A stretch of DNA of 64,000 nt from the NCBI GenBank assembly GCA_021154885.1, contig JAJKHS010000080.1:1-64000 (forward strand). The letters run 5' to 3'. Shown in pieces: positions 24,147 to 51,217 of the stretch; within the stretch, counting starts at the first letter, position 1; every line of letters begins with the position of its first letter. The notes below the pieces were generated by a model. That model was not told the origin of the DNA and did not search any database. It saw nothing but the letters and a program-made list of their open reading frames with translations. The DNA is from Thermoanaerobaculum sp. (lineage in GTDB: Bacteria > Acidobacteriota > Thermoanaerobaculia > Multivoradales > UBA5704). The position numbers and the translations under genes were made by a program.

Positions 24147-26017
24147 CATCTGCCAGCTTCCGCAGGCGTATCGCGCTCACGCTCGCCGCCGCGATCCTCA
24201 CCGCCGGCCTCGGCACCCGGCCTGGAACGGCCCGCACGGCCAAGCCGCCGCTCCATGGCCGCCACTGGATGGCCGTCACCGGCAAGCCCCTGGCCGCGAC
24301 CGCCGGGGCCATGATGTTCCAGAAGGGAGGCAACGCAGTCGATGCGACGTGCGCGATGCTGGCCGCCGTCTGCACCATGTGGGACACCCTGGGCTGGGGC
24401 GGCGAGACCCAGGCCCTGATCTGGAACCCCAAGACCGGCAAGGTAATCGCCATCGACGCCCTGGGCGTCGCGCCCACGGGCGCGACCCCCGAATTCTTCC
24501 ACGCCAAAGGCATGGAGTTCCCGCCCGAATTCGGTCCCCTGGCCGCGGTGACGCCCGGCACGCCCGGCGGCCTCCTCGTCATGCTCGCCGAGTACGGCAA
24601 GCTGAGCCTCGCGGACGTCCTCGGGCCGGCCCTGCAAATGGCCGAGGGCTACCCCATCGAGGCGCAGCTCGCCAACACGATCGAGCACGAGAAGGCGCAC
24701 ATCAAGGAGTGGCCGGCCTCCCGCGCCACCTTCCTCCCCCATCTTGGCGAGGCCTGGGAGGCGCCCCACGCCGGCGAGGTCTTCCGCCAGCCGGACCTCC
24801 TCGCCACCCTGCGCAAGCTGGTGGACGCCGAGCGCCAGGCCAAGGCCGCCGGCAAGAGCCGCAAAGAGGCGATCCTCGCCGCCTACGACCGCTTCTACAA
24901 AGGCGACATCGCCGTCGAGCTCGCCCGCGGCACCCGCGAGCAGGGCGGGCTCATCACCCCGGAGGACCTGGCGCGCTGGCAGGTGCGCATTGAAGAGCCG
25001 GTCAAGACGACCTACAAAGGGACCGATGTCTACAAGCTCACGAGCTGGACTCAAGGGCCCGCCATGCTCCAGTCCCTCAACCTCCTCGAGCCCATGGACC
25101 TGCGCGGCATGGGCTTCAACAGCGCACGCTACATCCACACCCTCTACCAGGTGATGAACCTCGCCTTCGCGGACCGCGACTTCTACTACGGCGATCCCTA
25201 CTTTCCACCCGAGCAGCCGCTCCAGACCCTGCTGTCCAAAGGCTACGCCGACGCGCGGCGCAAGGAGATCGACTGGAAGCGCAACGATCCGGCGGTGAAA
25301 CCCGGCGATCCCTATGGTTTCGCGGGGAAGGAAAATCCTTACAAGAGCTTCCTGGAAAAGTGGGGCACGCCCGCTGCGGCGAAGAAATATACGCAGCCGC
25401 AGAATTCATCCATGACCTTCGACGAGAGCTTCCGCGCCGGCACCACCTCCATCATCGCCGCCGACGAAGAGGGCTGGGTGGTCTCCGCCACGCCGAGCGG
25501 CGGCTGGACCCCCGCCTTCATCGCCGGCCGCACGGGCATCGGCCTCTCACAGCGGATGCAGAGCTTCGTGCTCGACGCCGCCCAGAGTCCCTTCAACGTC
25601 CTGGCGCCCGGCAAGAAGCCGCGCGTGACCCTCACGCCCAGCCTGGCCGTGAAGGACGGCAAGCCCTGGCTGGCCGCCGCGGTGCAGGGAGGAGACACCC
25701 AGGACCAGAACCTCCTGCAGCTCTTCCTCGATATCGCGGAGTTCGGGATGACCGTCCAGGAGGCCACGGAAGCCCCCAACATCACGAGCTATCAGATGCA
25801 CAGCTCCTTCGGTAACCACGAATCTCAGCCCGGAAGGATCACCGTCCACGCCAGCACGCCGCCCTGGGTCCGGCAGGAGCTCCAGAAGATGGGCTACAAA
25901 GTCGAAGTCGAAGACCGCACCTCCGGCCCCATCAACGCCATCCTCCTCGATCACGAGCATGGCACGATCTGGGGCGGCTCCAGCGACTATGGGGAGGATT
26001 ATGGGATTGGGTGGTGA
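24143..26017 (+). CDS. Gamma-glutamyltransferase family protein
   Basis: A 624-residue exported protein (N-terminal FRRRIALTLAAAILTAGLG). The N-terminal half has GGNAVDATCAMLAA and TPGTPGGLLVMLAEYGKLSL, as in the large subunit. The autoprocessing Thr is in AGTTSIIAADEEG, and the C-terminal half has PRVTLTPSLAVKDGKPW and AVQGGDTQDQN. In canonical enzymes the nucleophile is followed by TH; here it is followed by TS, so substrate handling may differ. Translation is coupled to the flavoprotein gene by a 4-bp overlap. Likely periplasmic peptide or glutathione metabolism. Confidence 0.9.
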   Translation: MTSASFRRRIALTLAAAILTAGLGTRPGTARTAKPPLHGRHWMAVTGKPLAATAGAMMFQKGGNAVDATCAMLAAVCTMWDTLGWGGETQALIWNPKTGKVIAIDALGVAPTGATPEFFHAKGMEFPPEFGPLAAVTPGTPGGLLVMLAEYGKLSLADVLGPALQMAEGYPIEAQLANTIEHEKAHIKEWPASRATFLPHLGEAWEAPHAGEVFRQPDLLATLRKLVDAERQAKAAGKSRKEAILAAYDRFYKGDIAVELARGTREQGGLITPEDLARWQVRIEEPVKTTYKGTDVYKLTSWTQGPAMLQSLNLLEPMDLRGMGFNSARYIHTLYQVMNLAFADRDFYYGDPYFPPEQPLQTLLSKGYADARRKEIDWKRNDPAVKPGDPYGFAGKENPYKSFLEKWGTPAAAKKYTQPQNSSMTFDESFRAGTTSIIAADEEGWVVSATPSGGWTPAFIAGRTGIGLSQRMQSFVLDAAQSPFNVLAPGKKPRVTLTPSLAVKDGKPWLAAAVQGGDTQDQNLLQLFLDIAEFGMTVQEATEAPNITSYQMHSSFGNHESQPGRITVHASTPPWVRQELQKMGYKVEVEDRTSGPINAILLDHEHGTIWGGSSDYGEDYGIGW

Positions 26018-26048
26018 AAAGGCCTGAAGTGATTCCCGCGGAGCTCAC

Positions 26049-26136
26049 GGACTTCAGGGACTCCAGGGACGGCAGGGACGAGGAAGCCCTGTCATCCTTC
26101 GTCTCCCTGAAGTCCCTGGAGTCTCTGTAGTCCCTG
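26049..26136. repeat. Inverted pair of 9-bp tandem repeats between convergent genes
   Basis: The left half is built of GGACTTCAG, GGACTCCAG, GGACGGCAG. The right half is the complementary form (CCCTGAAGT, CCCTGGAGT, CTCTGTAGT). Together they can fold as a long imperfect hairpin, and they lie between two convergent genes, so they may end transcription from both sides. The unit matches the repeat at 22751-22795. Confidence 0.65.
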
Positions 26137-26150
26137 CTTCTTCCTCCTGG

Positions 26151-28799
26151 CTACTCGTACCGCAACGTCACCACCGGCTCCACCCGCGAACCCCTCCGTG
26201 CGGGCAGATAGCTCGCCGCGAGCGCGACGCCAATCAGCAGCAGGGCGACCGCTGAAAGTGTCAGCGGATCGCCGGGTTGCACTCCAGGCAGGAGATGGGT
26301 GAGGACTCGCGTCACTGCCAGCCCTCCGGCGAGGCCGATCACGGTGCCGGTCAGGGTGAGACTCAGGCCCTGGCGCAACACCAGCCAGACGACATCGCCA
26401 CGCTCGGCGCCGAGCGCCATGCGGATTCCGAGCTCGTGCATCCGCTGCGTCACCGTGTAGGACACGACGCCGTAGAGCCCGACGGCTGCCAGGGCCAGCG
26501 CGAGCGTCGCGAAAAAAACGAGCAACAACGTATAGACGCGCGGCTGCGCGAGGGTGCCGGAAAGGACGTCGTCCATTGTCCGCACTCGGGAGACCGGCAC
26601 GTTGCGATCGACTGACTGCGCCATGTTCCGGATTGCGCCCGTCAGGGCCGCCGGATCTCCGGTCGTGCGCACGACCAGGACGAGCCAGGGCCATGCCGGC
26701 CCTGGCTGCGCATAATTGAGGAAGATCTCGGGTTGTGGCGCGCTGCCGAGGCTTCTCTGTCGCACGTCGCCGGTGACGCCTACGACGGTGAGGGTGCCGC
26801 TGTCGCCAGCACCCGGCACGGTGATCTGTTTTCCCAGCGCGTCCCCACCCGGCCAGAAGGTTCGTGCCGCGGTGTCATTGACGACGATCACGCCCGGTGC
26901 GCCCACCGAGTCCCGCTCTGTAAACTCGCGTCCCGCACGCAACGGGATCGCCATGGTGTGGAAATAACCTGCGCTGACGATGTTGAAGCTCGCGCTGAAC
27001 GCTCCGTCCGGCGCCGGGTCCGGCCGTCCGGCGATGTGAAATCCGAGCGAGTCCGACCCGCCGCCCAGGGGCAGGTCGGCCACCAGCGCCGCGGAGCGCA
27101 CGCCGGGCAGAGCCGCGACGCGCGCCAGCATGTTGGTGAAGAATCCCGATCGTTCGATGGTGTTACTGAACTTGTTTTTCGGTAGCGAGAAATCCACCGT
27201 CAAAAGGTTTTCGGTACTGAATCCCGGGGCCGTGTTGCGCAGCACGAGAAGACTCTTCAGCAACAAGCCGGCGCCGGAGAGCAAGATCAACGCCAGAGAG
27301 ACTTCCGCGATCACGAGAAGGGAACGCGCGCGCCGGCCGCCGGCGCCTTCGGTGGCCGTACGGCTCGATTCGCGCAGGACTTCATTCAGGTCCGGCGAAG
27401 CGGCGGGGACGGCGAGCACGGAGCCAAAGAGGATGCCGGTGACGAGCGACAGCGCCAGCGTGAACAACAGCACCCAGCCGTCGATGTGGGTGTTTTCGAG
27501 GCGGGGAATGGGGAAGCTCTGCGCCAGCAGCGCCACCAGCAGCCGGGTCCCCCAACTCGCCAGCAGCAGACCGAGCAGGCCGCCGGCGAGCGCCAGCAGC
27601 GTGCTCTCGGTCAGCAGTTGCTGCAGCAACCGCTTGCGGCTGGCGCCGAGCGCCGAGCGCACGGTCAGCTCTCGCTGGCGCGTTGCGGAGCGCGCCGACA
27701 TCAAAGCCGCCACGTTGATGCAGGCGATCACCAGCACCACCGCCACCACGCTGAGAAAGATCAGCAAACCGGTGCGCCCCTTCCCCACCATTGCCGTCAC
27801 CAGCAGCACAATGCGCGCGCCGACTCTTTCGTTGGTCTTCGGATACTCCTTCGCCAGACGGCTCGTGATGACGTCCATCTCTGCCTGTGCCGCCGCGGTC
27901 TGGGTACCCGGCCGCAACCGGCCCAGCACGCGCAGGAAGCCGTGGCCCCGGCTGGGATCGCGGACCAGCGGCGTATAGATCTGCTCCACCTCGTTCGGAG
28001 AAAACTTGAATCCTGGCGGCATGACGCCGATGATGGTATAGGTCTCCTCGTTCCCACGGAACGTCCGGCCTACGACGTCCACACGGCCGGCAAAGCGGCT
28101 TTTCCATGCGCCATCACTCAGCAGTGCGACGTGGGACGCTCCCGCTTCCGACTCTTCGGGCCGAAACGTCCGGCCCAGCGCGGGCTGAATTTTCAACGTC
28201 TCAAAAAATCCGGGCGTCGCCTGAACGGCGGCCACGTCTTCGGCCTGGTCTCCGCCCGCGAGGATCATGCCGCGGGTGGTGAAAGCCGCCATGTTTTCGA
28301 AGCTCTTGCTGCCGGCTCTCCACGCTTCGAAATCCGGATAGGAAGCGACGTCGTCCGTCCTGCCGCTCTCCGCGTTCGTCGCCCAGATCAGGACGAGACG
28401 CTCAGACTGCGGAAACGGCAGCGGACGCAGGAGCACGGCGTTGACCACGCTGAAGATCGCCGTGTTGGCGCCGATGCCGAGGGCGAGCGTCAGCACCGCG
28501 ATGGCGGTGAAGCTGGGATCCTTGCGCAGCATGCGCGCGCCGAAGCGCAGGTCCCGTGCCAAGTGCTCCAGACCGGGAACGCCGCGACGGTCCCGCACCT
28601 GCTCCTTGATCGATTCGACGCCGCCGAGTTTGAGCACCGCGTCCCGGCGCGCCGCTTCGGGCGTCATGCCCGCCCGCAGGTTGTCCTCGACGTGCAATGC
28701 CACGTGGCTCTCGAGCTCCTCCGCAAGCTCGCGGTCCCGCCGCTCCCGATTGAACAACCCGCCCAGACGCAGCACCCCGGCTCGCAGTTGCCGTGTCAT
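26151..28799 (-). CDS. ADOP-type ABC permease (FtsX/MacB-like), PadR-linked
   Basis: An 882-residue permease starting at ATG 28799 ([20 protein letters not shown]). Residues 1-75 form the N-terminal ADOP helical extension ([22 protein letters not shown]). A first membrane helix ([20 protein letters not shown]), MacB periplasmic domain, three helices around residues 380-475, a second periplasmic domain and the FtsX end ([19 protein letters not shown]) follow. It is coupled to padR by a TGATG overlap, which is the diagnostic arrangement in Acidobacteriota. Role: probably efflux or envelope transport with an ATPase encoded elsewhere. Confidence 0.94.
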
Positions 28800-46613: not shown

Positions 46614-48002
46614 ATGGGCGACGGACCTTGCGAGCTGCCGGCGCGGGTGCTTGCGCGCAGGCTGAGACGGCGGCAACTGACCGCCGTCGAGGCCCTGGAG
46701 GCTCACCTCGAGCGGATCGAAGAGCGCAACCCGGTGCTCAACGCGGTCGTCTCGCTCGACGCCGGCCGAGCGCGCAAACGGGCCGAGGCGGCCGATGCCG
46801 CCCTCCGGCGCGACGAGGTCTGGGGTCCGCTCCACGGCGTCCCAATGACGCTCAAGGATGCGCACGACGTGGCCGGCCTGCGAACGACGGTGGGCACGGC
46901 GGCGCTCGACCGGATCGCGGAGGAGGACGGCACGGTGGCGGCCCGGCTGCGCGCGGCCGGCGCGATCGTCATCGGCCACACGAACGTGGCGGCCTGGTTG
47001 GCCGACCCCCTCCAGACGGCGAATCCGGTCTTTGGCCGCACCTGCAATCCCTGGGATCCGGAACGCACCCCAGGCGGCTCGAGCGGTGGCGCCGCCGCCG
47101 CGCTCGCCGCCGGCCTGACGCCCCTCGAGGTCGCCTCGGACCTCGCGGGCTCGATCCGGCTGCCGGCGCACTTTTGCGGCGTCTATGGCCTCAAGACGAC
47201 GGAGCATCGCGTGCCCTTCACCGGTTTCTTTCGCCAGCCGGACGGCGTCCCGCGATCGGTCCGCATCCTGTCCTGCCTCGGTCCCATGGCGCGCGACCTC
47301 GGCGACCTGGAGTTTGCCCTCCGCATCATCGCCGGTCCGGATGGACAGGATGGCGACGTGCCGCCGGTCCCCCTCGGTCCGCGGCGCCGGCGCCGGCTCC
47401 AGGATCTGCGTCTGGCCGTGGCCCCGGCGCTGCCCGGCGATAAAGTTGCAAAGAGCGTCCGGCAGCAGGTCGAGCGCGTGGCGGCGCAGGCTTCCGACGC
47501 TGGCGCGAGGGTGGACGAGCGTCTGCCGGACGTCGACTGGGAGGATCTTTACAAGCTGTTCGGCGATCTGGTGGCGACGATCACCGGTCTCTTTTCCCCC
47601 GGCGCCCACTTGCGGGACGAGCAACAGAAGCTGTCCTGGTATTTCGCGGCCCTCGAACGGCGCGATCGCCTGATCGCTGCCTGGCAGAAATACTTCGAAA
47701 ACCTCGACGGTCTCCTCCTGGCTCCGGCCATGACGAGCGCCTTTCCTCACTGCGAGCCGGGCACGCCGATCAAAGTCGACGGGAAGCCCGTGAGCTACTG
47801 GGAGATCGGCCGCGTGCAGACGATCTGCAATCTCACGGGCCTGCCCGGGCTGGCCGTCCCGGCCGGCCGCGACGACGACGGCCTGCCGATCGGCCTTCAG
47901 ATCGTCGGCCCCCTCTGGTCCGAGATGCGCCTGCTGGAGATCGCCCGCGAGTTGGAAAGGGCGGGGATCCTGCCCGGGTTCCAGGCACCGCCGGGCTTCT
48001 GA
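46614..48002 (+). CDS. Amidase signature family enzyme
   Basis: A 462-residue amidase from ATG 46614 (MGDGPCELPARVLARRLRRR). The Ser-cisSer-Lys triad is present: Lys in VPMTLKDAHDVAG, cis-Ser in TPGGSSGGAAAALAAG and the nucleophile in SDLAGSIRLPAHFCGVYG. The C-terminal region has NLTGLPGLAVPAG and LPIGLQIVG. It hydrolyses amide bonds; the substrate is unknown. It resembles GatA but is not adjacent to gatB or gatC, so an indoleacetamide- or 6-aminohexanoate-type role is as likely. No clear ribosome binding site. Confidence 0.92.
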   Translation: MGDGPCELPARVLARRLRRRQLTAVEALEAHLERIEERNPVLNAVVSLDAGRARKRAEAADAALRRDEVWGPLHGVPMTLKDAHDVAGLRTTVGTAALDRIAEEDGTVAARLRAAGAIVIGHTNVAAWLADPLQTANPVFGRTCNPWDPERTPGGSSGGAAAALAAGLTPLEVASDLAGSIRLPAHFCGVYGLKTTEHRVPFTGFFRQPDGVPRSVRILSCLGPMARDLGDLEFALRIIAGPDGQDGDVPPVPLGPRRRRRLQDLRLAVAPALPGDKVAKSVRQQVERVAAQASDAGARVDERLPDVDWEDLYKLFGDLVATITGLFSPGAHLRDEQQKLSWYFAALERRDRLIAAWQKYFENLDGLLLAPAMTSAFPHCEPGTPIKVDGKPVSYWEIGRVQTICNLTGLPGLAVPAGRDDDGLPIGLQIVGPLWSEMRLLEIARELERAGILPGFQAPPGF

Positions 48003-48259
48003 TCTGATGAAGTCAACCGATTCGAGCTTGGGGAGGCCCACGGATGCGCTGGATTTCCGTTCGGGGCGGACCCTCTTCTCCCGGCGGTACCTCTGAACTT
48101 GCAAGAGCTCGTCGACCTTTCGAAGAGCACCTAGCCTGTCAACGACGAGAGGTCCGCCGTTCGTGAGCTTGGCGGCGCCTCCTCTCCGCTACGGCACCAA
48201 CTGCCCGTGCACACTCGGGGCGAGAGACTGTGGTAGACTTTTTTCCGGAGGTCCGGAAG

Positions 48260-48544
48260 ATGCCCAAGGTTATCGAAGTCAAAGCTTTGTCGGATTATAG
48301 GATCTGGGTCCGCTTCGCGGACGGTACTGCTGGCGAGGTGGACTTGTCGCATCTTGCGGGGCGTGGCGTCTTCTCTCTGTGGCAAGACTACACGGCCTTT
48401 AGAGGGGTGCACCTCGGACCCAGCGGGGAGATCGCATGGAACGACGAGGTTGAGCTCTGTCCAGATAGCATTTACCTGAAGATCACCGGAAAGACCCCAG
48501 AAGAGGCCTTCCCAAACTTGGTTCGGACGGAAGTCGGTGCCTGA
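48260..48544 (+). CDS. DUF2442 domain protein
   Basis: A 94-residue protein from ATG 48260 (MPKVIEVKALSDYRIWVRFA). It has the DUF2442 beta-rich pattern: FADGTAGEVDLSHL, then GVFSLWQDYTAFRGVHLG, IAWNDEVELCPDSIYLKITG. DUF2442 genes are commonly paired with DUF4160, as here with an 8-base overlap, and the pair looks like a toxin/antitoxin-type module, although activity is unproven. Confidence 0.85.
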   Translation: MPKVIEVKALSDYRIWVRFADGTAGEVDLSHLAGRGVFSLWQDYTAFRGVHLGPSGEIAWNDEVELCPDSIYLKITGKTPEEAFPNLVRTEVGA

Positions 48545-48796
48545 GCTCTGCCGGTTCTACGGGATCATCATTAAGATGTATTTTGAAGATCATAATCCAC
48601 CCCACTTTCATGCCGAATATGGCTCGGAGGGAGCGATCGTCGACATCAATACCCTCGCCATAATATACGGTCACCTTCCTCCGCGCGCTCTTGGACTCGT
48701 TGCCGAATGGGCGTCCTTACACCAAGAGGACTGAGAGCGAACTGGCAGCGGGCAAGGAGTCTCGAACCACTCGGGAAGATCGACCCGCTGCGTTAG
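48537..48796 (+). pseudogene. DUF4160 protein, frameshifted near its end
   Basis: GTG start 48537, overlapping the DUF2442 gene. The first frame (GIIIKMYFEDHNPPHFHAEY, ALGLVAEWASLHQED) is a DUF4160 protein but hits a TGA at 48732-48734. In the -1 frame the usual end follows (ELRANWQRARSLEPLGKIDP), stopping at TAG 48794-48796. A single missing G in GAGGAGCTG would restore it. DUF4160 proteins carry the conserved HNPPHFHAEY metal-like motif. Confidence 0.75.
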
Positions 48797-48859
48797 CCTC
48801 CCAGGAGGCAAAGGTGCAGGACCGACCGGTCACCACCAATGAGCTTGAGGCGCCTCGCC

Positions 48860-49280
48860 ACAGGCCTGCGGCGAGCCGGCCAGGCTTGCGCCGGCTCTTC
48901 GCGCCCTAGCGGCACTCCCTGCCAGGATTGCGCCGCTTCATGGCAAGCCTGGCACCTCCCGTCTCGAGCTTCGCACGCCTGGTTCCAAGCCGGAGACGAG
49001 ACGCGTCGAGCTTGCCGCGACGCGTTCAGGTACTGGATCGACTCCTTCCAGGTTTGAGTCGACCCGTCAAAGGCTCGCGCCGCTTCGATCAAGCCTGCGA
49101 TGGGTCGTTCCAGGCTCGCGGCGACAGACGTCGAGCTCGCGGCGGCAGGAGGCAAGGCCGGGAGTCGAGACGTCAGGCCTGAGACGCGACGAGGCAGGCC
49201 TGGCCACCTCTCCACGAGCCTGGCCCATCTCTCCTGAAGCTTGAGGGGCGACGTCGCGAGATTGCGATGAGGTGTAGCAA
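48860..49280. repeat. Degenerate 21-bp minisatellite
   Basis: About 20 diverged units with a strict 21-bp period: consecutive units at 49153-49257 are each 21 bases long and share a core (A)GGCCTG or (A)AGCTTG near the middle. Reading either strand gives 7-residue periodic peptides, so the open frames here (for example minus 49284-48793 with RWARLVE, RWPGLPR, RVSGLTS) are by-products. No coding role is supported. The rest of 48797-49432 shows nothing else. Confidence 0.7.
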
Positions 49281-49432
49281 GCACGGGAGACTGCGAAAGG
49301 AGAACGCCGGGATCATGGGAGGCCCTCCTGAGGGAAAGACCAAGTCTGGTTCGTTAGCTCAATCGTATGCCTCTTGCGATAGACACCAGAGATCCTGCCT
49401 TACAATCAGTCCGATTTCCAAGGAGACCTCCC

Positions 49433-51217
49433 GTGCCCCAGCCCATTCGCCGCGCCGTGCTATACGTCCTTCTCCTGCTCGTCCTCGCCGCCGCCGCCGC
49501 CCCTGTGGCCGAGAAGCCGCCGGACGTGGACCTCCAGTGGGGCGTCCGCATCCCGCTGCGCGACGGCGTGGAGCTGGCCGCCACCGTTTACAAACCGGCT
49601 GGACAGAAGGAGGGTCTGCCCGTCGTCTTCACGCTCACTCCGTACATCGGCGACAGCTATCACCCGCGGGCCATGTACTTCGCCCGTCACGGCTTCGTGT
49701 ACGTGCTGGTCGACGTGCGGGGGCGCGGCAGCTCGGGCGGCACCTTCGATCCTTTTGCTCAGGAGAGCCGGGATGGTTACGACGTCGTCGAGTGGCTGGC
49801 CCGCCAGCCATGGTCGAACGGCAAGGTGGCGATGTGGGGCGGCTCCTACGCCGGCTACGACCAGTGGGCCACGGCGCGGGAGCGGCCGCCCCACCTGGCG
49901 ACCATCGTTCCCGCCGCCTCCGTCCGCCCGGGAGTGGACTTCCCCGCTCCCAAGAACATCTTCTATGCCTACGATACCCAGTGGCTGACGTTCACCAGCG
50001 GCAAGACCGGGAACGCCCAGCTCTTCGGCGAGTCGTCCTACTGGATCCAGAAGTACCGCGAGATGTACGTCAACCACCGCCCGTTCCGCGAGCTGGACCG
50101 GATCGTGGGCAATCCGAATCCCGTGTTCCAGAGATGGGTCGCCCACCCCGCGGTCGACGACTTCTGGAAGTCGATGACGCCCACTCCCGAGCAGTTTGCC
50201 AGGCTCGATCTGCCCATCCTCACCATCACCGGCCACTACGACGGCGATCAGGGCGGCGCCCTCTCTCATTACCGCGAGCATATGCTCCATGCCTCGCCGG
50301 CGGCCCGCGACCGCCACTACCTCATCATCGGCCCCTGGGATCACCCCGGCACCCGCACCCCGGTCCGCGAGGTGAGCGGCCTGACTTTCGGCGAGGCGAG
50401 CGTCCTCGACCTCAACGACCTGCACCGGCAGTGGTACGACTGGACGATGAAGAGCGGCCCCAAGCCTGCCTTCCTCAAGAAGCGGGTGGCCTACTACGTG
50501 GTGGGCCCCGGGGCCGAGGAGTGGAAGTACGCCGACTCGCTGGAGGAGATCGGCGCCCAGAAGCGCACTCTCTATCTCGCGTCCCAGAACGGCCAGGCAG
50601 GCGACGCCTATCGCTCGGGCGCCCTCGCGGACACGAAGGCCGCCGGGGCCACGGAGCCCGACCGTTGGGTTTACGATCCCCTGGACGTTCGCCCTGGCGA
50701 GGAGCTGGAGCGCGGGGACGGTGAGGCCTACCTCACCGATCAGCGCGGGGCCCTCAGCCTCTTCGGCAACGGCGCCGTCTATCACAGCGCGCCGTTCGCC
50801 GAGGCCACGGAGGTCTCCGGGCAGGTGAGGCTCTCTCTCTGGATGGCCCTCGACGTACCCGACACCGATTTTCAGGCCAGCCTCTACGAGATCCTCGCCG
50901 ACGGCAAGAGCGTCCTCCTCACCTCGGACTTCCTGCGCGCCCGCTACCGGGATTCGCTGGAGAAGGAGAGCCTGGTTCCGAAGGGCGAGATCGTGCGCTA
51001 CGAATTCACCGGCTTCTCCTGGTTCTCCCGCCGGGTCTCGAAGGGCAGCCGGCTGCGCCTGGTGGTCTCCTGCCCGAACTCCATAGCGCTCGAGAAGAAC
51101 TACAACTCGGGCGGCGTGGTGGCGGACGAGACGGCGAAAGACGCCCGCACCACCCACGTCGTCCTCTACCACGACGCCGAGCACCCGAGCGCGCTGGAGA
51201 TTCCGATCGTGAAGTGA
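49433..51217 (+). CDS. CocE/NonD family hydrolase, exported
   Basis: A 594-residue enzyme, GTG start 49433 chosen because AAGGAG lies 8 bases upstream (an ATG at 49367 is possible). Signal peptide VLYVLLLLVLAAAAAPV. The alpha/beta hydrolase core has the nucleophile in WGGSYAGYDQW, Asp in TGHYDGDQGG and His in GPWDHPGTR. The C-terminal jelly-roll (EVSGQVRLSLWMALDVPDTD) is the PepX_C domain. It is a likely X-Pro dipeptidyl-peptidase-like or ester/cocaine-esterase-like hydrolase. Substrate unknown. Confidence 0.93.
   Translation: MPQPIRRAVLYVLLLLVLAAAAAPVAEKPPDVDLQWGVRIPLRDGVELAATVYKPAGQKEGLPVVFTLTPYIGDSYHPRAMYFARHGFVYVLVDVRGRGSSGGTFDPFAQESRDGYDVVEWLARQPWSNGKVAMWGGSYAGYDQWATARERPPHLATIVPAASVRPGVDFPAPKNIFYAYDTQWLTFTSGKTGNAQLFGESSYWIQKYREMYVNHRPFRELDRIVGNPNPVFQRWVAHPAVDDFWKSMTPTPEQFARLDLPILTITGHYDGDQGGALSHYREHMLHASPAARDRHYLIIGPWDHPGTRTPVREVSGLTFGEASVLDLNDLHRQWYDWTMKSGPKPAFLKKRVAYYVVGPGAEEWKYADSLEEIGAQKRTLYLASQNGQAGDAYRSGALADTKAAGATEPDRWVYDPLDVRPGEELERGDGEAYLTDQRGALSLFGNGAVYHSAPFAEATEVSGQVRLSLWMALDVPDTDFQASLYEILADGKSVLLTSDFLRARYRDSLEKESLVPKGEIVRYEFTGFSWFSRRVSKGSRLRLVVSCPNSIALEKNYNSGGVVADETAKDARTTHVVLYHDAEHPSALEIPIVK

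Follow-up and report, generated by a model that had tools for sequence, protein, structure and literature searches.

Dispersed minisatellites and MITE-like repeats occur as blocks at many intergenic sites with unrelated flanks. A class closer to the array described here, noncoding tandem repeats of constant length (20–21 and 52 nt) and variable sequence, was reported by Subirana and Messeguer in 2021 from Bacillus and other bacteria (PMC8161180). In the portion of that paper drawn on here, the repeats are species-specific, a few related arrays of 40–41 nt occur, and no obvious function is described; the authors note that the repeat length equals two helical turns and suggest the involvement of nucleoid proteins or RNA. 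Among the literature matches listed, only the work of this group appears relevant by title and abstract, and no report of 21-bp intergenic tandem repeats in Acidobacteria was found. An earlier paper of the same authors reportedly describes a 22/44-nt class.

The window analyzed here is a stretch of 64,000 nucleotides from an Acidobacteriota genome of 8.2 Mb (Thermoanaerobaculum sp., G000). At 48841–49279 it contains an intergenic tandem array of 21–23 degenerate units of ~21 bp, to which no strand is assigned. Each unit is formed by a 7-bp core near RRGCYTG and a ~14-bp spacer with a weak consensus. The autocorrelation of 48800–49300 is 0.450, 0.425, and 0.352 at lags of 21, 42, and 63 bp (z = 7.9, 6.9, and 2.9 against 300 first-order Markov shuffles), and the comparison lags of 18 and 24 bp are lower (0.234 and 0.256). 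When 48800–49310 is parsed with a core matrix and almost unconstrained spacing, 23 units are recognized at a score of 142.9, compared to a maximum of 21.8 in 100 shuffles. The core list made by eye has 21 cores spanning 48841 to 49258. We will use the term “family A” for this array and its relatives; the assignment of the window array is based on the autocorrelation, the core list, a unit table, the matrix parse, the spectral period, and a partly self-complementary unit profile (palindrome z 4.4).

An earlier note on this DNA had placed the array at 48860–49280, with strongly diverged units and an exact 21-bp period, and had made an autocorrelation peak at 21 bp beyond the 3-bp periodicity of codons its test. 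The location and the divergence are borne out and the test is passed, the spacing being kept far better than the sequence. The array is slightly longer than proposed, and its period is near 21 bp rather than exact, since the matrix parse gives nineteen intervals of 21 bp and three of 20 bp, and the spectral peak lies at 20.86 bp. Tandem Repeats Finder, even at a score of 30, reports nothing across 48841–49279, which reflects a detection criterion and not a defining property of the 20–21 nt satellite class. A CRISPR array was also considered and dismissed, as the repeats share only a degenerate 7-bp core and are not near-identical; five proteins near the array match amidase, DUF2442, DUF4160, S15 peptidase, and M23 families, with no cas protein among them.

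A DUF2442/DUF4160 gene pair lies on one side of the array and an S15-type peptidase gene on the other. The pair directly 5′ of it (48230–48734) resembles the DhiA/DhiT toxin-antitoxin system, with both genes under the NCBIfam cut-offs: the DhiA-like antitoxin (48230–48544, + strand) matches PF10387 with 43.1 bits and NF048016 with 34.7 bits (cut-off 200), and the DhiT-like toxin (48537–48734, + strand) matches PF13711 with 70.8 bits and NF048015 with 69.8 bits (cut-off 100). Downstream, ~150 bp separate the array end from the modeled GTG start of the S15-type peptidase gene (49433–51217, + strand), whose matches to PF02129 and PF08530 were obtained with the protein taken from a start at 49367. 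Among named genomes, this gene is best matched in MAGs of Terriglobia and Acidobacteriota, at 66% and 65%, respectively. A preference of the arrays for gaps between convergent genes was also considered. In G000, 7/16 gaps that hold an array are of this kind, compared to 15/98 other gaps of at least 200 bp (p = 0.014), but the loci not picked by pattern give 2/5 vs 13/73 (p = 0.24) and the same-family genome G003 gives 4/7 vs 3/13 (p = 0.17), and the result is not relied on.

Since 21 bp is seven codons, the array could encode, or could formerly have encoded, a heptad-repeat protein. In the extracted segment of the window copy, one minus-strand frame runs through 148 codons without a stop, and an open frame of 163 aa covers the array (48793–49284, − strand). 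The latter has no Pfam or NCBIfam match and is judged spurious; the array translation likewise matches no family in either collection. The closest comparison is provided by a homologous array on another contig of the same genome (G000:C23:17751–18199, minus strand), which aligns to 48838–49264 of the window with 72% identity over 446 columns. This C23 copy has 2–8 stops in each of its six frames, so the heptad-like open frames pointed out in the earlier note are incidental. Divergence between the two copies is equal at all three codon phases (103/141, 109/142, and 108/140 identical). Steps of 20 and 22 bp break the frame, and other families have non-integer periods. A protein origin is thus extremely improbable, and coding heptads, discarded on the equal codon-phase divergence and the stops of the C23 copy, are refuted on these data. 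The window array is noncoding, in agreement with the absence of a gene reported earlier.

The array is not a single occurrence. A pattern of three cores 21 bp apart, allowing two mismatches, has 104 overlapping matches in the genome, compared to 15 for the reversed pattern, and these matches led to further family A arrays. Inspection of other loci revealed arrays that are unrelated in sequence but identical or almost identical in period. In an 864-kb sample of G000, made up of the window and 40 pieces of 20 kb each, placed arbitrarily on contigs to which matches had already pointed and which are therefore not a random choice, 14 noncoding periodic arrays were found. Eleven of them have a period of 20–21 bp or a multiple (41, 61, 62), and the other three have a period of 9 bp. 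Leaving out the window array, the count is 10/13, found in 800 kb (about 12.5 per Mb); for a representative sample, this would extrapolate to a genome total of the order of 100 such satellites. Outside the window array and its closest copy, the noncoding status is taken from gene models made with a simple gene finder, by which a few loci that look like satellites are classed as coding (L065 in G000; L165 and L256 in G003); in another run of it the coding overlap of L165 is just 9%. In the remaining intergenic DNA, a residual 21-bp period was considered and rejected, being inseparable from a 3-bp periodicity that probably comes from missed genes. The search of the genome for the same period, which had been proposed earlier, thus yields many arrays in unrelated families, a point that the earlier note missed; the window array is a real feature, and a more general one than that note held.

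Several of these families are unrelated by all-against-all comparison (E up to 1e-6) and by inspection of the printed arrays. Besides family A there is a second large family, with a core near GGCTTCGCGAAGCCC and the same period, at G000:C74:35479–35739 and about twenty other places (L045, L048, L050); the loci L046 and L051 are related, and the family matches itself on both strands. Family B occupies at least 21 places in G000 among the 40 scored candidates listed. At L058:11130–11640 there is a satellite with a 62-bp higher-order unit made up of three units of 20.74 bp each, and ten places in the genome match this family, some over a short length. Arrays of 9-bp period form a second size class (25876–26275 of the window; L240:11001–11375; L240:14276–14675). 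There are also coding arrays of 63 bp, which appear WD40- or beta-propeller-like by sequence alone (L056:4276–5875; L063:16726–17075).

The families are largely species-specific. Family A has 28 matches in G000, with none for the control, and the other 71 genomes have no clear excess over controls; one family-A-like array is present in G001. Families B and B2 have matches in none of three relatives, and family C has a single short match in G001. In G003, which belongs to the same family of organisms, all four noncoding arrays in 340 kb have a period of 21 or 63 bp. Eight genomes from other families of the order have five noncoding arrays in 740 kb, with periods of 61, 23, 28, 23, and 17 bp; the noncoding arrays with 23- and 28-bp periods in G023, a genome from one of these families, are L174, L176, and L177. 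A ninth genome, G012, also from another family, has a 21-bp peak on a contig chosen for its pattern match. No periodic peaks were found at 42 loci in other named genomes, the two peaks of that scan being those of G002 and G003. These two genomes, from the same family as G000, have 21-bp arrays of different sequence at the S15 locus, located downstream of the gene, whereas the window array is upstream.

The period has also been determined as a fractional value. The spectral peaks of 41 of 43 arrays have a mean of 20.86 bp, with L044 and G012_L191 left out for their weak peaks, and 15 families have a mean of 20.84 bp (s.e. 0.07), which is 2 × 10.42 and thus near two B-DNA turns. Both means are values measured within the class and not measures of prevalence, as the search covered 17–26 bp and most arrays had been chosen as periodic. 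Single arrays lie at 20.02, 20.50, and 20.74 bp, and the higher-order units are 41, 61, and 62 bp. Based on this mean and the non-integer arrays, the period looks like a better fit to a helical step than to a multiple of the codon.

The phase between homologous arrays also bears on the spacing. Net phase shifts over the alignment were determined for 50 homologous pairs; 45 of these have a shift of 1 bp or less (0 in 26), and the remaining five drift by 2, 8, 9, 9, and 9 bp. In neutral simulations with the same aligner, a drift of at most 1 bp is seen in 28% of pairs at an indel:substitution ratio of 0.1 and in 76% at 0.0125; in this comparison the 50 pairs share arrays, the seed arrays were chosen as periodic, the baseline is the simulation and not neutral DNA of the genome, and the alignment minimum was 140 columns for the observed and 120 for the simulated pairs. 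All 12 disjoint pairs have a shift of at most 1 bp. Of the 14 pairs that compare a seed array with its own copies, 13 drift by at most 1 bp, and 13 of these copies came from DNA searches and were not selected for periodicity; 16 copies are named, and C136 and C80b, which have no 140-column alignment, are absent from the list. Due to the five drifting pairs, the mean absolute drift (1.12) is close to that of the simulation at a ratio of ~0.0125 (0.94) and is not zero. A random-sign drift test (19/43 gapped pairs in phase, 7.7 expected) was set aside in favor of the simulation because the paired one-base gaps of the aligner favor an in-phase result.

These ratios can be compared to mutation rates. 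The values given in part of PMC4978911 yield indel:substitution mutation ratios of 0.10–0.36 for four bacteria, and a ratio of 0.35 for Acidobacterium capsulatum is given in the portion of PMC8717266 used here. The measured range exceeds what the observed drift implies, so the phase looks constrained, with the spacing and not the sequence being maintained. The gap count taken by itself is less marked: over the 50 pairs there are 0.049 gaps per mismatch, a value that simulated pairs reach when the indel ratio is near 0.05, only 2–7 times below the mutation-accumulation values. The earlier proposal of selection on spacing with two-turn phasing is partly supported, by the 45/50 pairs in phase (28% in the neutral simulation at a ratio of 0.1) and the mean of 20.84 bp; specific binding of a protein to the core finds no support.

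The most likely mechanism, to which we assign a probability of roughly 0.45, is that the spacing is kept for a helically phased assembly. The array, a noncoding satellite, would be of a kind that spreads in blocks to new intergenic positions, the sequence drifting afterwards. What would be kept is the step from one unit to the next, two helical turns (~20.8 bp), so that all units face the same side of the double helix. The candidate partner would be a DNA-binding or DNA-wrapping assembly of little sequence specificity that polymerizes or bridges in two-turn steps; because such an assembly would step along the DNA in two-turn units, out-of-phase insertions and deletions would be selected against. 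This mechanism is favored because 11/14 sampled arrays share the period, its mean is 20.84 bp, and the phase is held in 45/50 and 13/14 pairs, and because the S15 locus of G002 and of G003 also has 21-bp arrays, with a different sequence. On the other hand, the five drifting pairs, the gap ratio of 0.049, and the finding that only 3/138 gaps in the 50-pair alignments are exactly 21 or 42 bp argue against it. The histone fold PF00808 is present in 0/12 genomes and no binding protein was identified, which also counts against a phased assembly; HU was found in 12/12 genomes.

The copying of whole blocks is consistent with the edges of the homology. The local alignment between the window array (C80) and C23 begins and ends at the array edges. 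For one family aligned at four sites, the flanks are unrelated, and the homology starts at the array edge in three copies; the fourth has additional units there. Inspection of this single four-copy alignment by eye revealed neither terminal inverted repeats nor target duplications.

Within the blocks, the core does not stand out. Between C80 and C23, the two closest family A copies, 109/143 core positions (76%) and 211/280 spacer positions (75%) are identical; conservation of the RRGCYTG core is not detectably above that of the spacer. Since core and spacer diverge equally, there is no sign of special protection of the core, and core-centered protein binding is unsupported. Over 17 pooled array pairs, the high-information columns are 81.7% identical and the low-information columns 73.6%, a pattern that misregistered units can also produce. 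A simple roll model, in which the signal lies at half the period, gives no excess of in-phase bending over column-permuted units (2/15 families below 0.05). The equal divergence and the lack of a bending excess are further points against the phased assembly.

The main rival to a phased assembly explains the constant length by origin and not by function. In this lineage, replication slippage or template switching would tend to lengthen or duplicate DNA by two helical turns at a time, which the folding back of partly palindromic units could, for example, bring about; neutral decay of the arrays would follow. The equal divergence of core and spacer and the largely species-specific families agree with it, as do the gaps of exactly 21 bp between array copies (10/67 gaps in the 17 pairs, four of them in one pair). 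Self-complementarity points in the same direction: in a set of 28 array profiles, some from arrays found by pattern and others from the sampled stretches, 15 are more self-complementary than their column permutations (z ≥ 3), ten of them in families A, B, and B2. However, the other 13 profiles are below z 3, adjacent spacers in seven arrays are not significantly more complementary than shuffled ones (lowest p 0.058, in C80; 0.195 in C23), and the phase after copying is held better than neutral indel rates predict. We regard a mutational step as quite possible.

A further possibility is that the array is transcribed as a structured RNA of many small hairpins. The window array folds more stably than shuffled sequences on both strands (z −2.45 for the + strand and −4.17 for the − strand), several of its cores are flanked by inverted repeats, and the 52-nt Bacillus satellites are described as transcribed in the part of PMC8625621 used here. 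Double changes in stem pairs restore pairing in 64/116 cases compared to 39% for the control, in a test of 24 array pairs each read in both directions and therefore not independent; for C80 read against C23, the counts are 6/9 and 126/307. This excess would fit a maintained RNA stem, and it would equally be given by templated copying between the arms, as expected from a mutational step. Single changes nevertheless disrupt 28.0% of stem pairs, much like the 29.2% of control pairs, and 35/104 stem pairs are lost between C80 and C23. The hairpins are thus not clearly maintained, with restoring changes in excess and breakage ordinary. The lack of significant complementarity between neighboring spacers also speaks against an RNA. 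There is no Rfam match in 47900–49700 (E up to 1), and a consensus scan of 48000–49600 gives no terminator and a single site resembling a promoter, which is on the − strand at 48616–48589 and thus beyond the array. A structured RNA appears improbable.

A wider reading would extend the phased assembly to constant-length satellites of bacteria in general. These could be sequence-independent spacing devices of whole helical turns (20–21, 40–41, ~52, and 61–62 bp corresponding to 2, 4, 5, and 6 turns of ~10.4 bp), acting as phased platforms for a polymerizing nucleoid protein, with the phase under purifying selection and the letters free. This generalization is doubtful, since the 22/44-nt class, as it is reportedly defined, fits less well, as do the arrays of 23 and 28 bp in G023. 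With many unrelated families of nearly one period, and with homologous pairs that drift in sequence and stay in phase, selection on spacing becomes measurable. The lineage is one in which to search for whatever protein or process might measure out turns of the helix, and the function of the constant-length satellites is at stake.

The present arrays resemble dispersed minisatellites and MITE-like repeats in their many intergenic sites with unrelated flanks. They differ in being phased arrays internally and in the lack of visible terminal inverted repeats or target duplications in the four-copy alignment mentioned above. The 52-nt Bacillus satellites, as far as the portion of PMC8161180 drawn on here describes them, are likewise of constant size, dispersed, and without sequence conservation, with signals and their reverse in one unit; they differ from the window array in their length of 52 instead of 21 nt, which we interpret as five turns of 10.4 bp. 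The 20–21 nt repeats of the same portion are closer. They share with the arrays of G000 a period of 20–21 nt or a multiple (20.86 bp in the window array; 11/14 arrays), several unrelated families per genome, species-specific sequences, and noncoding units with a short common signal. The window array differs from them in its lineage and G+C-rich sequence and in being too diverged for Tandem Repeats Finder, and the fractional-period, phase-drift, and core-versus-spacer tests are those of the present analysis. In the properties tested, the window array fits as a member of this known but unexplained class of 20–21 nt satellites, in another lineage.
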